Source: Aminobacter sp. HY435 (GTDB lineage Bacteria; Pseudomonadota; Alphaproteobacteria; Rhizobiales; Rhizobiaceae). Taken from it: a DNA stretch of 64,000 nt. The notes under the pieces were generated by a model that did no database searches, was not told the origin of the DNA, and saw only the letters and a list, made by a program, of their open reading frames with translations. The DNA lies in NCBI RefSeq assembly GCF_027568395.1, contig NZ_JANKZL010000009.1, positions 1 to 64,000 on the forward strand, written 5' to 3'. Positions 40,796 to 55,963 of the stretch are shown piece after piece; the first letter of the stretch is position 1; each line of letters begins with the position of its first letter. The position numbers and the translations under genes were made by a program.

Positions 40796-41740
40796 GTGAC
40801 CGACCAAATGCCCGCCCACATGCACCCCAGCCGCTCGTTTCAGGGCCTGATCCTGACGTTGCACAACTACTGGGCCGCACATGGTTGCGTCATCCTGCAG
40901 CCCTACGACATGGAAGTCGGCGCCGGCACGTTCCATCCGGCGACCACGCTGCGCGCGCTCGGGCCCAAGCGCTGGAATGCGGCCTACGTGCAGCCGTCGC
41001 GCCGCCCCAAGGACGGCCGCTACGGCGAAAACCCGAACCGCCTGCAGCACTACTATCAGTACCAGGTCATCCTGAAGCCCAATCCGTCGAACCTGCAGGA
41101 ACTGTATCTCGGCTCGCTGAAGGCGATCGGCCTCGATCCGCTGGTGCATGACATCCGCTTCGTCGAGGACGACTGGGAAAGCCCGACGCTCGGCGCCTGG
41201 GGCCTTGGCTGGGAATGCTGGTGCGACGGCATGGAAGTGTCGCAGTTCACCTATTTCCAGCAGGTCTGCGGCATCGAATGCGCGCCCGTCGCCGGCGAGC
41301 TGACCTACGGACTGGAGCGCCTGGCGATGTATGTCCAGGGCGTCGACAACGTGTATGACCTCAACTTCAACGGCCTCGAAGGCGACGACAAGGTCACCTA
41401 TGGCGAGGTCTTCCTGCAGGCCGAGCAGGAATATTCACGCCACAATTTCGAGCACGCCAACACCGCCATGCTGCTCAGGCATTTCGAGGACGCCGAAGCC
41501 GAGTGCAACGCGCTTCTCGCTGCCGGCGCGCCCGTGGCGGGCGGCAACGTGGCCCAGCACAAGGTGGTTTTCCCCGCCTATGACCAGTGCATCAAGGCGA
41601 GTCACGTCTTCAACCTCCTCGACGCGCGCGGCGTGATCTCTGTCACCGAGCGGCAGAGCTACATCCTGCGCGTCCGCAACCTGTCCAAGGCCTGCGGCGA
41701 GGCCTTCCTGTTGACGGAAGCGGGCGGCTTGGCGGTCTGA
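40796..41740 (+). CDS. glyQ: Glycine--tRNA ligase alpha subunit
   Basis: Catalytic alpha subunit of the bacterial alpha2-beta2 glycyl-tRNA synthetase. 314 residues with [39 protein letters not shown], and [21 protein letters not shown] of the class II core. GTG 40796 gives [20 protein letters not shown] 40808 is an alternative. The partner gene glyS lies almost 1 kb away because a nuclease cassette separates them. A repeat starts one base after its stop codon. Confidence 0.94.
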
Positions 41741-41741
41741 A

Positions 41742-41795
41742 GGCTTTACCTCCCCCTTGATGGGGGAGGTCGCCGCGAAGCGGCGGGTGGGGGTG
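41742..41795 (+). repeat. 54-bp inverted repeat, left copy of the DUF559 cassette
   Basis: Contains the hairpin ACCTCCCCC-TTGAT-GGGGGAGGT (41748-41770) and CGCCGC-GAA-GCGGCG (41771-41785), then ggtgggggtg. The reverse complement is found at 42205-42258 with a few mismatches. It begins immediately after the glyQ stop codon. Confidence 0.85.
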
Positions 41796-41812
41796 ATGAG
41801 GAGGAGGGCTCG

Positions 41813-42196
41813 GTGCCCAAACTCGATCGTTTCCGACTGGAGTCAGCGCGCCGCCTTCGCTCGGCAATGACCGACGAAGAGCGGATCTTGTGGAAGCATA
41901 TTTGGCGAATTGCCGTTGAAGGAACGCATTTCCGCAAGCAAGCTTCACTAGGCATCTATTTTCCCGACTTCGTCTCGCATCGGCTGAAGTTAATCATTGA
42001 GGTCGACGGCGCTCATCATGGTTTTGATGATCAGAGACGGCATGATCAAACGCGGACCCTATGGCTCGAGAGCCAAGGATATCGGGTCCTTCGCTTTTGG
42101 AATCATGAAGTGAAACAGGAATTGGAAGCAGTTTTGGACACCATCTTTGCGGTCGTTGACGAGCGTCGCAGAGATCTGGCTGACGACGCTTCCTGA
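41813..42196 (+). CDS. DUF559-family VSR-like endonuclease domain protein
   Basis: 127-residue single-domain nuclease-fold protein. The PD-(D/E)XK core is present: FPDFVSHRLKLIIEVDG, with Asp in FPDF and Glu in IEVDG, followed by RFWNHEV. FRKQASLGIYF is another family signature. GTG 41813 follows GGAGGAGGG by four bases. Three lines counted by eye give about 50, 45 and 55 percent GC, well below the flanking glyQ and glyS. Because it lies between glyQ and glyS and between 54-bp inverted repeats, it looks inserted. Related proteins are often considered mobile or repeat-associated; the biochemical role here is unknown. Confidence 0.85.
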   Translation: MPKLDRFRLESARRLRSAMTDEERILWKHIWRIAVEGTHFRKQASLGIYFPDFVSHRLKLIIEVDGAHHGFDDQRRHDQTRTLWLESQGYRVLRFWNHEVKQELEAVLDTIFAVVDERRRDLADDAS

Positions 42197-42204
42197 CTGG
42201 AAGA

Positions 42205-42258
42205 CACCCCACCCCGGCGCTACGCGCCGACCCTCCCCATCGAGGGGAGGGTAAGGCC
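42205..42258 (-). repeat. 54-bp inverted repeat, right copy of the DUF559 cassette
   Basis: Reads cacccc-accccggcgc-tacgcgccga-ccctccccatcgaggggagggtaaggcc, the reverse complement of 41742-41795 with a handful of substitutions that preserve the two hairpin stems (GGCGC/GCGCC and CCCTCCCC/GGGGAGGG). Compensating changes suggest that structure is selected. Confidence 0.85.
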
Positions 42259-42313
42259 GCGCGGCCTCCGCTCCTTCGCTGGATGTGGGCAACACCGAAA
42301 TTCGAAGCAAACG

Positions 42314-42487
42314 CTATGCAGCAGCGAGCTCCAGGCCTTCCGGAAGGCGTGGCTGCAGGGTTTCGCCATTGATCGTCTGCAGCGCCTTGCGCACGCCCGG
42401 CATCCGTAGTTCCGCTGGCGCCGCCACATGCATTGTGAACAGGGCGGCGAGGGCGAAAGCTTGTAGGAGGGCGGAAGCGGTTTTCAT
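42314..42487 (-). CDS. Small secreted protein (57 aa)
   Basis: ATG 42487-42485 to TAG 42316-42314. N-terminal signal-like MKTASALLQAFALAALFTMHVAAPA (cleavage about residue 24), then a short mature part LRMPGVRKALQTINGETLQPRLPEGLE. No ribosome site is obvious, and the frame is antisense to the glyQ-glyS transcript, so evidence is only moderate. It lies between the repeat-flanked nuclease gene and glyS. Function unknown. Confidence 0.45.
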   Translation of the reverse strand: MKTASALLQAFALAALFTMHVAAPAELRMPGVRKALQTINGETLQPRLPEGLELAAA

Positions 42488-42690
42488 TGTTTTCGAGCCA
42501 AAAGGTGTCTGCCTGAGCGTTGGTCGCTTCAGCGCGGCATTCGGTTCATGGAAATCCTCGCCCCAAGGACGAATTCGCAGGGCAGGTCCCGACAGCCCAA
42601 TGGGGATTTCCGCCGATCGCGCGCGGGAAGGTGACAGCGGGCGGCTGAGTTGCTATGCCGCGCGGACCATTTCCCGCGTGAGCCCGTCCG

Positions 42691-44982
42691 ATGCCCGATC
42701 TGCTACTTGAGTTGCGTTCCGAAGAAATCCCCGCCCGCATGCAGCGCAAGGCGGCGGGTGACCTCAGGAAGATGCTGACCGACGGTCTGGTCGAAGCAGG
42801 TCTTACCTACGAGGCAGCGCGCGAATATTGGACGCCGCGCCGGCTCACCCTCGACGTCAGAGGGCTGACCGCCCGCTCGAAGGACATCCACGAGGATCGC
42901 AAAGGCCCTAGCACCAAGGCGCCGGAAGCGGCGATCCAGGGCTTCCTGCGCAGCGCCGGCCTGGCTTCGATCGCAGAGGCGCACGTCCACAGCGATCCCA
43001 AGAAGGGTGATTTTTATGTCGCCCATATTTCCAAGCCGGGCCGCTCGGCCGAGGAGATCATCGCCGAGCTGGTGCCCGCGATCATCAGGACGTTTCCCTG
43101 GCCCAAGTCGATGCGCTGGGGCCCGGCTTCGGCAAGGCCCGGCAGCCTGCGCTGGGTGCGCCCGCTGCAGTCCATCGTCTGCACCTTCGGGCCGGAAACC
43201 GAAGAGCCCGTCGTCGTCGATTTCGAAGTCGACGGCATCCGCTCGGGCAACATCACCTACGGCCATCGCTTCCATGCGCCCGAGGCTATCAAGGTCCGCC
43301 GTTTCGAGGACTATGCCGCCAAGCTCGAAGCGGCCAAGGTCGTCATCGACGCCGAGCGCCGCAAGGAGATGATCGCTGCCGATGCGCGCAACCTGGCATT
43401 CGCCAGCGGGCTTGAACTGGTCGAGGACGAGGGCCTGCTCGAGGAGGTCTCCGGCCTCGTCGAATGGCCGGTCGTGCTGATGGGCTCGTTCGAGGATGCG
43501 TTCCTGCAAATTCCGGCCGAGGTCATCCGCCTGACCATCCGCGCCAACCAGAAGTGCTTTGTCACGCGGCCGCAGGGGAGCGAGGACGCGCTTTCCAGCC
43601 ACTTCATCCTGACCTCGAACATCGAGGCCAAGGACGGCGGCAAGGAAATCGCGCATGGCAATGGCAAGGTGGTGCGCGCGCGCCTGTCGGATGCGCTCTA
43701 TTTCTGGAACACCGACCAGGGCGACCTGCCGGATATCGACACGCTGAAGGGCGCGGCTTCCGCTTTCGCGCTCGACCTCGCCAAGCCGCTCGACCAGCGG
43801 ATGGCGCGGCTCGACCATTTGGGCGTGACCTTCCACGCCAAGCTTGGCACCCAAGGGCAGCGCGTCCAGCGCATCCGGTCGCTTGCCCGCGAGATCGCGC
43901 CGCTGGTCAACGCCGAGCCGAAGCTTGCCGAGCGCGCAGCCGTGCTCGCCAAGGCCGACCTGCAGACCGAAGTGGTCGGCGAGTTCCCCGAACTGCAGGG
44001 CGCGATGGGCCGCAAATATGCGTTGCTGCAGGGCGAAAGCCCTTCCGTGGCCGCGGCGATCGAGGAGCATTACCGGCCGCAGGGCCCGTCTGATCGCGTT
44101 CCGGCCGATCCGGTTTCGGTTTCGGTGGCGCTCGCCGACAAGCTCGACACGCTGGTCGGATTCTGGACGATCGATGAGAAGCCCACGGGCTCGAAGGACC
44201 CTTATGCGCTGCGCCGTGCCGCGCTCGGCGTCGTCCGCATCATCCTGTCGGCGCGCGGCCCGCTGCCGCTGACCAGGCTGTTCGATGCCGCGCTGGCCCA
44301 ACTCGCCGAAACCTCGATCACCAAGAGCCTCGCCGCATTCGAGGCGAAGCAGGATGCTATCGACAGCGGCGACGTCGATGGCGAGCAGGATGTCGACAAC
44401 GCGCTCGCTTCTTACGAGGCCGAGTTGCGCCGCGACGCCATTGCCCGCGCGGCTCCGCTGAAGGCGGACCTGCTGGCCTTCTTCCATGACCGCCTCAAGG
44501 TCTATCTGCGCGAGCTCGGCGCTCGCCACGACCTCATCGATGCGGTGATCACATCCGAAGCCGACGATCTCCTGGCGGTCACCCGCCGCGTCGAGGCGCT
44601 CGGCCACTTCCTCGAGAGCGAGGACGGCAAGAACCTGCTTGCCGGCACCAAGCGCGCCGCCAACATTCTCGCCGCCGAGGAGAAGAAGGGCACCGCTGTC
44701 GCTGCCCATGTCGATCCGGCGCTGTTCCGCGAAGACGCGGAAAAGGCGCTGTATGCAGCGGTCGACCAGGCTGTCGACAGCGCCGGCAAGGAAATCCATC
44801 GCGAAGACTTCGCCGCCGCCATGCGGGCGCTGAGTGTCCTGCGCGCGCCGGTCGACGCGTTCTTCGACAAGGTTCTGGTCAACGACGAGGACCAGGCCGT
44901 TCGCGCCAATCGCCTGGCGTTGCTGGCGCGCATCCGCGCGGCGACCGACCAGGTCGCGGATTTCTCGAAGATCGCGGGATAG
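42691..44982 (+). CDS. glyS: Glycine--tRNA ligase beta subunit
   Basis: 763 residues: N-terminal [24 protein letters not shown], central [19 protein letters not shown], and C-terminal anticodon/DALR-like domain ending [16 protein letters not shown]. The beta subunit binds tRNA-Gly and is required for charging by GlyQ. ATG 42691. In most bacteria glyS follows glyQ directly; here 950 bases with a nuclease cassette intervene. The length is about 60 residues more than E. coli GlyS, normal for alphaproteobacteria. Confidence 0.93.
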
Positions 44983-55860: not shown

Positions 55861-55963
55861 TATCTTCTCCCCGTCCTCCACGGGGAGAAGATGCCGGCAG
55901 GCAGATGAGGGGCAGCGCGAGCGCAAGATTGCCCCTCACCCTTGAAGAACGGGGAGAGGGGGC
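55861..55963. repeat. RIME-like intergenic mosaic repeat, copy 2
   Basis: Contains tcttctccccgt-cctcc-acggggagaag (55864-55891), gccggcaggcagatgaggggc and gcccctcaccctt..aacggggagagggg. These modules match 2468-2584 in reverse orientation. Located between the crotonase gene and the convergent pdxH, in a typical intergenic position. Confidence 0.75.

Follow-up and report, generated by a model that had tools for sequence, protein, structure and literature searches.

DUF559 nuclease genes and their flanking palindromes: a possible REPIN/RAYT-like two-part element in bacteria

The cassette between glyQ and glyS

The window analysed here, a stretch of 64,000 nucleotides from Aminobacter sp. HY435 (contig NZ_JANKZL010000009.1), carries between glyQ and glyS a short cassette in which a gene for a DUF559 (PF04480) nuclease is boxed by two inverted palindromic elements (Table 1). 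A sequence-only reading of this stretch had described 54-bp inverted repeats around the gene, the left one starting just past the glyQ stop, and a 127-residue nuclease with its own ribosome-binding site, and the coordinates obtained here agree with that description. The two repeats are identical at 43 of 54 positions in a position-by-position comparison, and three base pairs, of which hairpin 1 has two and hairpin 2 has one, are changed on both sides with no pair broken; because these three pairs change two-sidedly, both hairpins are kept in both repeats, as had been claimed. Folded as DNA, the left repeat reaches -18.9 kcal/mol (z -5.0) and the right one, taken with one extra base, -19 kcal/mol (z -4.1), and none of 200 shuffles was as good. 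The pattern of two hairpins plus tail was found at two places in the window and in no shuffled version of it (100 shuffles). The low GC content noticed earlier was also borne out, the DUF559 gene having 52.6% against 64.3% for glyQ and 66.3% for glyS, and a GC content at third codon positions of 55.1 against 83.7 for glyS. A known RNA family was ruled out as the identity of the repeats, since no Rfam model matched within 41600-42700 at E up to 1.

Table 1. Features of the glyQ-glyS cassette and its neighbours (window coordinates)
Feature	Position	Strand	Basis
Left palindromic element	41742-41795	+	Sequence; fold z -5.0; base-pair comparison with right copy
Left element, hairpin 1	41748-41770	+	
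Left element, hairpin 2	41771-41785	+	
Left element, purine tail	41786-41795	+	
Ribosome-binding site of DUF559 gene, purine-rich	41799-41808	+	Sequence; position by eye
DUF559 (PF04480) nuclease gene, 127 aa, GTG start	41813-42196	+	Pfam match; invariant residues; substitution ratio (dN/dS)
Right palindromic element, inverted copy of left	42205-42258	-	43/54 bases agree; fold z -4.1
Right element, hairpin 1	42230-42252	-	
glyQ, upstream neighbour, start approximate	40796-41740	+	Open reading frame list; naming by the sequence-only reading; matched as glyQ in relatives
glyS, downstream neighbour	42691-44982	+	Open reading frame list; matched beside DUF559 in nine named loci

The window protein matches the Pfam model of DUF559 with 116.8 bits (cut-off 20.6; E = 5.4e-34) and stays below the cut-offs of the Vsr profiles PF03852 (15.4 vs 27) and TIGR00632 (24.2 vs 97.85). 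Residues E23, W27, Q43, D52, E63, D65, G66, H69, R81 and R94 are invariant across 64 sequences. By sequence, its relatives of solved structure are 3hrl (E = 1e-40), the mobile intron protein 3r3p (E = 3.4e-4), which we take to be an I-Bth0305I-like homing endonuclease with an EDxHD motif, and PvuRts1I (E = 0.014). The protein is under constraint in most of the pairs compared: the ratio of nonsynonymous to synonymous substitution rates (dN/dS) is 0.13 between the window gene and its copy in the same-genus genome G006, and it lies at 0.10-0.21 in four of the five DUF559 gene pairs that gave a ratio, which indicates purifying selection. An anti-phage defence system was considered and rejected, as the matches to the PADLOC defence models were weak and partial only (best 17.3 bits, E = 5.5e-4), with no strong full-length match. 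As a separate observation, the DUF559 matches of G106, G171 and G018 lie inside long open frames (709, 1503 and 1018 aa), which are possibly fusions or chance frames.

Dispersed doublets and their link to DUF559 genes

In the window's genome (G000, 4.6 Mb), the full repeat pattern has 31 exact matches, one of which (C24:364656) is a read-on from an adjacent copy, against none for the reversed pattern that served as the control, and the shorter pattern of the outer hairpin has 182 copies against 3. A chance origin of the repeats was rejected by this copy number together with the reversed-pattern control. Viewed by eye, nearly all of 20 loci hold the repeat as a convergent doublet, some with a partner of another type. 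The doublets have a common anatomy, wherein hairpin 1, hairpin 2 and the tail are followed by a short spacer (16-28 nt in 12 measured doublets) and then by the same parts in reversed order. The sequence of hairpin 2 is identical between the halves in none of these 12 doublets, yet a hairpin 2 stem of at least 5 bp is present in 22 of 24 halves and a GNA loop in 17 of 24, and in an overlapping set the stem occurs in 27 of 30 half-elements against 29% of shuffles. Hairpin 2 is therefore conserved in its structure and not in its sequence. When three doublets were folded as DNA, two gave a four-way junction with two hairpin-2 arms and the third a less regular form (z -9.2 to -12.6), and the predicted junction would be a plausible nuclease substrate. 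The copies are unevenly spread, because in a 460-kb sample of the genome the pyrimidine-arm hairpins numbered 15 and those of the opposite kind 6, and about 10 of the 15 were recognisable repeats by eye.

The same genome has five full DUF559 genes and one fragment, and four of the five, including that of the window, are each boxed by an inverted repeat type of their own, the four types differing in sequence and being similar in design (partly by eye). The fifth has elements on its left side only, and the fragment (L006, contig C26, profile positions 75-105) has no such repeats. The sequence-only reading had proposed looking for further copies of the repeat, alone or around other DUF559 genes, and the 31 full-pattern matches and the three additional boxed genes supply both. 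No transposase of the Y1 (RAYT/IS200, PF01797) family, where RAYT stands for REP-associated tyrosine transposase and REP for repetitive extragenic palindromic, was found in G000. A lone hairpin of another repeat type lies in the window at 55862-55892, reading CTTCTCCCC..GGGGAGAAG and then GATGAGGGGC; the same type boxes the DUF559 gene of locus L003.

The purine tail is approximately a mirror image of the purine arm of its own hairpin, often with one A changed to T. Over 68 hairpins at DUF559 loci, which are not independent by descent and make this a lead only, the similarity of the tail is 0.81 to its own arm mirrored, 0.73 to other arms, 0.755 to its own arm read directly and 0.645 to the outer side. 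The tail may thus fold back as a third strand in a purine-motif triplex.

The physical link between gene and palindrome extends to other taxa. A homologue scan with the five G000 proteins gave 531 loci, the best 80 of which were kept and 77 could be tested. Matching inverted repeats within 250 bp of both ends were found at 22 of the 77 DUF559 loci against 1 of 540 neighbouring frames at a score of at least 36, two of the 22 being doubtful (the L057 repeat lacks the hairpin design and that of L068 has only 18 bp), and at 17 of 77 against 0 of 540 at a score of at least 40. A hairpin with the pyrimidine arm on the 5′ side lies at most 300 bp upstream of 58 of the 77 genes (24 of 540 neighbours), downstream of 23 (31 of 540), and on either side of 63 (63 of 540). 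By eye, doublets stand upstream of DUF559 in Sinorhizobium, Azospirillum and Shinella, inverted copies stand on both sides of the gene in Deinococcus proteolyticus, one and the same hairpin-tail element flanks it on both sides in direct and not inverted orientation in Neisseria gonorrhoeae (L252), and a Sphingomonas locus shows no clear box. Across 26 cassettes, the left and right repeats found their own partner as best match in 26 of 26 (mean 64 vs 17); this comparison is circular and was not used as evidence, as the arms were cut by that very alignment, 22 of the 26 had been selected for it, and the right repeat of G000_C23b is lost inside the gene end. Repeat and protein similarity are weakly correlated over the same cassettes (Mantel r 0.17, p 0.027).

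Hairpin copy number tracks the number of DUF559 genes in two bacterial orders. Among 249 genomes of the window's order, each at least 90% complete, the Spearman correlation is 0.80, with genome size controlled through the reversed pattern alone, and the correlation within families is 0.66 against 0.28 for the largest of 5000 permutations. The median number of hairpin copies is 36 with DUF559 and 1 without it. The gene is present in 86 of the 93 genomes with at least 20 hairpins against 44 of the 156 with fewer, and in all 29 genomes with at least 100 (28 by a strong match and one by a weak match). Y1 transposases, the transposase family that was compared against copy number, occur in 37 of the 249 genomes and in 2 of the 29 with at least 100 copies, and their correlation with hairpin number is 0.04, by which RAYT was rejected as the driver of these repeats. 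In 150 genomes of the order of the Xanthomonas locus L111, which has a related hairpin, DUF559 is present in all 22 genomes with at least 20 copies against 25 of 128 others (Spearman 0.55, control 0.06). The L111-related hairpin was also counted in 24 DUF559-bearing genomes chosen from the scan, and it has at least one copy in 22 of them and at least 20 in 16, with controls of 0-2 except for 27 in one genome.

Presence, absence and exchange at individual sites

Doublets and one cassette are present in some and absent from other members of the genus. The joined flanks of eight G000 doublets were searched in ten same-genus genomes (G000 and G001-G009). The L036 doublet is absent from all nine other genomes, with G008 giving a flank match only as the alignment failed, and that of L012 is absent from seven of nine, which are all those with a match. 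For L010 and L024, a single junction-spanning match, too short to hold a doublet, was obtained in each of five other genomes, and the remaining four sites give mostly split matches. The gene-bearing cassette of L005 is missing from all nine relatives: the neighbouring genes stand a few bases apart in six, the flank matches are 4 bases apart in G007, and G001 and G002 have other sequence without DUF559 at the site. In the L005 cassette itself (G000, contig C23), the DUF559 frame runs on into the right repeat, which encodes the C-terminal end of the protein (TPTPNPSPQGGG).

Two further sites record exchange. The L003 site is occupied by three DUF559 lineages over seven genomes and the L002 site by two over five, and the type of the flanking repeats switches with the DUF559 lineage, namely that gene and repeats change together at one and the same site. 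In G001, the L003 site holds a bare doublet.

The glyQ-glyS cassette is an old resident that has suffered losses and not a recent arrival, because the nine closest loci of the scan (54% identity or more, four genera) all adjoin glyS; these are Mesorhizobium L037 and L038, Rhizobium L039, L040, L041, L043 and L051, Fulvimarina L042 and Jiella L044. Within the genus, the cassette is found in G000, in G004, where a one-base deletion shifts the frame, and in G006 with an open frame. G001, G002, G003 and G005 retain the left element only, cut within hairpin 2 and joined to sequence past the cassette, so that the four share the scar of a deletion; in G007 and G009 both repeat and gene are absent, and G008 gave no match at the site. 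A recent insertion at glyQ-glyS was rejected on the nine loci beside glyS and the scar in four genomes. The sequence-only reading had spoken of a mobile or domesticated cassette and had looked to relatives for an empty site. On the same two observations, a freely mobile copy at this place is not supported; as for the empty site, G007 and G009 lack both repeat and gene there, and the four scarred genomes show no clean one. The presence of the cassette at the same place in all relatives, which that reading had set against its own proposal, is contradicted by G007 and G009. The cassette lies directly before glyS in L037 and L038 and directly after glyQ in G000, G004 and G006, so that two positions are used in one spacer.

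Outside this group, the Escherichia coli DUF559 gene ycjD (L255) lies between sapF and fabI, and 3361 of 5426 genomes match at least 80% of the query region; no clean empty site was seen in the three inspected strains without the region, because efflux genes follow sapF there. For Sinorhizobium, the collection searched held no relatives of the cassette-bearing record with the site, and a 50-kb stretch of pSymB held no hairpin.

A proposed two-part element and its alternatives

Based on these findings, we consider it probable, though well short of certain, that the cassette and the doublets form a two-part element of the kind known from REPINs (REP doublets forming hairpins) and RAYTs, in which a Vsr-like DUF559 nuclease takes the place of the RAYT enzyme. 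The likeness to REP elements and their RAYTs, first raised by the sequence-only reading, gained support, as the repeats are dispersed, stand in doublets, are linked to DUF559 in many taxa and follow DUF559 in number. Because the pairing of gene and repeat recurs in very different bacteria, it suggests that a class of palindromic repeats common in bacteria has its partner in the DUF559 nuclease. The linkage, the doublet anatomy and the copy-number relation are observed; we infer that DUF559 works on the palindromes with the junction as substrate and thereby spreads the doublets. In the proposed mechanism, one part would be the DUF559 nuclease (Vsr-like, of the PD-(D/E)XK type) held between two inverted palindromic elements, and the other part would be the gene-less inverted pair, the doublet, dispersed as a non-autonomous form. 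When single-stranded or extruded, the inverted pair could fold into a four-way junction made of an outer stem, two independent hairpin-2 arms and an inner stem of tail against tail. The DUF559 protein would recognise this junction and nick near the tails, and from this nick the pair could be copied or transferred to other sites; cassettes with the gene would in some cases stay and be inherited, while the doublets would turn over. More tentatively, and at slightly less than even confidence, these elements may constitute a separate class of mobile palindromic elements in several phyla, wherein a Vsr-like nuclease of the PD-(D/E)XK type, acting alone with no HUH, DDE or tyrosine enzyme, spreads a folded inverted pair through a four-way junction.

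The function of the widespread DUF559 family is not settled; a repair role was recently proposed for one of its members. If the two-part reading is true, a type of bacterial repeat that has long been noticed would have its enzyme, and the REPIN/RAYT lifestyle would have arisen a second time with a different nuclease; if the separate class is real as well, DUF559 proteins would largely be palindrome-mobilising nucleases, some of them turned to host use. A direct test is feasible with one small protein and one short DNA.

Several observations weigh against the two-part reading. Matching repeats at both ends are missing from 55 of the 77 DUF559 loci, and at 14 of the 77 a qualifying hairpin is absent both upstream and downstream. 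In the 249 genomes, a weaker correlation with DUF559 number (0.32) is also seen for the reversed control pattern; seven of the 93 genomes with at least 20 hairpins have no DUF559 match (G010, G014, G072, G121, G187, G211 and G237, which are candidates for gene loss), 15 genomes have DUF559 but at most three copies (nine of them by weak matches), and of the 47 genomes with DUF559 in the second order, 16 carry one copy or none. A repeat type does not always go with one gene, as G003 and G009 have mixed or nested types, and the L002 site of G006 holds old repeat halves around a doublet of another type without DUF559. The junctions of two empty doublet sites and one empty cassette site have extra bases, and no target-site duplication is readable there. 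One pair of DUF559 genes has a dN/dS of 0.6 and a sixth is saturated. The glyQ-glyS copy itself is old and syntenic; it is frameshifted in G004, and four of the nine loci beside glyS (L037, L038, L043 and L051) have an interrupted frame.

The strongest rival is a homing-type passenger, in which a selfish DUF559 endonuclease targets the doublets and is copied into them by repair, the doublets being spread by something else. The distant sequence relation to 3r3p speaks for it, as do the different DUF559 lineages at the same two sites with a bare doublet at one, and the identical end layout of gene-bearing cassette and doublet. However, no other candidate driver was found, the Y1 family that was compared not following copy number, and several genomes with a single DUF559 gene have more than 100 hairpins; we regard this passenger as unlikely, if worth keeping in mind. 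Less likely still is a role in repair, in which DUF559 nucleases would act on mismatches or cruciforms and so let palindromes be tolerated, palindrome-rich genomes retaining the nucleases. This explanation fits the purifying selection on DUF559 and what is reported of Caulobacter VsrA, namely that the activity of this DUF559-domain protein triggers the SOS response when a cytosine methyltransferase is lost, and that it is proposed to be a Vsr-type mismatch-repair nuclease (PMC12907096). A common fold and active-site layout with Vsr are also reported there. It leaves unexplained why palindromes box the gene and why gene and flanking repeats change jointly at a site; moreover, the window protein stays below the Vsr cut-offs. 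No methyltransferase gene was noticed beside the window cassette, and the strings 'palindrom' and 'inverted repeat' are both absent from the main text on VsrA (PMC12907096).

The palindromes might also be moved by an unrelated transposase or by recombination, with DUF559 merely hosted at repeat-rich intergenic sites, and the seven hairpin-rich genomes without DUF559 and the nesting of doublets inside one another speak for this; but only 1 in 540 neighbouring genes is flanked by matching repeats, and a Y1 link is lacking, and we regard it as quite improbable. An ordinary role of the hairpins in regulating or terminating the gene would accord with their being commonest upstream of it (58 of 77 against 23 of 77 downstream), but these elements also stand as doublets at dispersed sites not beside DUF559 and vary in presence between relatives, and we give this explanation hardly any weight.

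The two-part element of nuclease and doublet preferred here shares with REPIN/RAYT systems the inverted palindrome doublets in many dispersed copies, an enzyme gene flanked by units of the same kind, and several types per genome, each with a gene of its own. RAYTs are typically single-copy, vertically inherited and domesticated genes. The enzyme here is a DUF559 nuclease (PF04480) and not an HUH/Y1 transposase (PF01797), the element has a pyrimidine-arm hairpin, a second hairpin and a purine tail, and Y1 genes do not follow its copy number. No unpaired GTAG tag stands beside the hairpin, the left copy having no GTAG and the right copy having it only within hairpin 2. On enzyme and tag, therefore, the element falls outside the RAYT system, although it could still work in a similar way. 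With I-Bth0305I-like homing endonucleases (3r3p), the DUF559 cassette has in common a distant sequence relation and a small stand-alone nuclease gene; no intron context was seen at the boxed G000 sites that were read. Like miniature inverted-repeat transposable elements, the doublets are short, bear inverted repeats and have the same ends as an element that carries a gene, whereas the cassette ends are themselves hairpins, no DDE transposase gene is present in the cassette, and target-site duplications are not readable. Di Nocera and colleagues describe the CGTC-tagged REPs of alphaproteobacteria as palindromic repeats that occur in dimers, apparently without a dedicated transposase (PMC3733652). 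The window element resembles these in being a palindromic alphaproteobacterial repeat in dimers, and differs from what is described there in its stems, its second hairpin and its purine tail, and it is another family; no CGTC motif was found in or near either window copy, the search covering CGTC itself and not the variant tags TGTC and CCTC. In the open-access literature searched, no description linking DUF559 to palindromic repeats was found.

The roughly 430 bases from the right repeat to glyS lie outside the cassette. This part of the glyQ-glyS spacer contains a small frame (MKTASALLQ...) on the minus strand at about 42316-42489, in a region that is alignable in several same-genus genomes.
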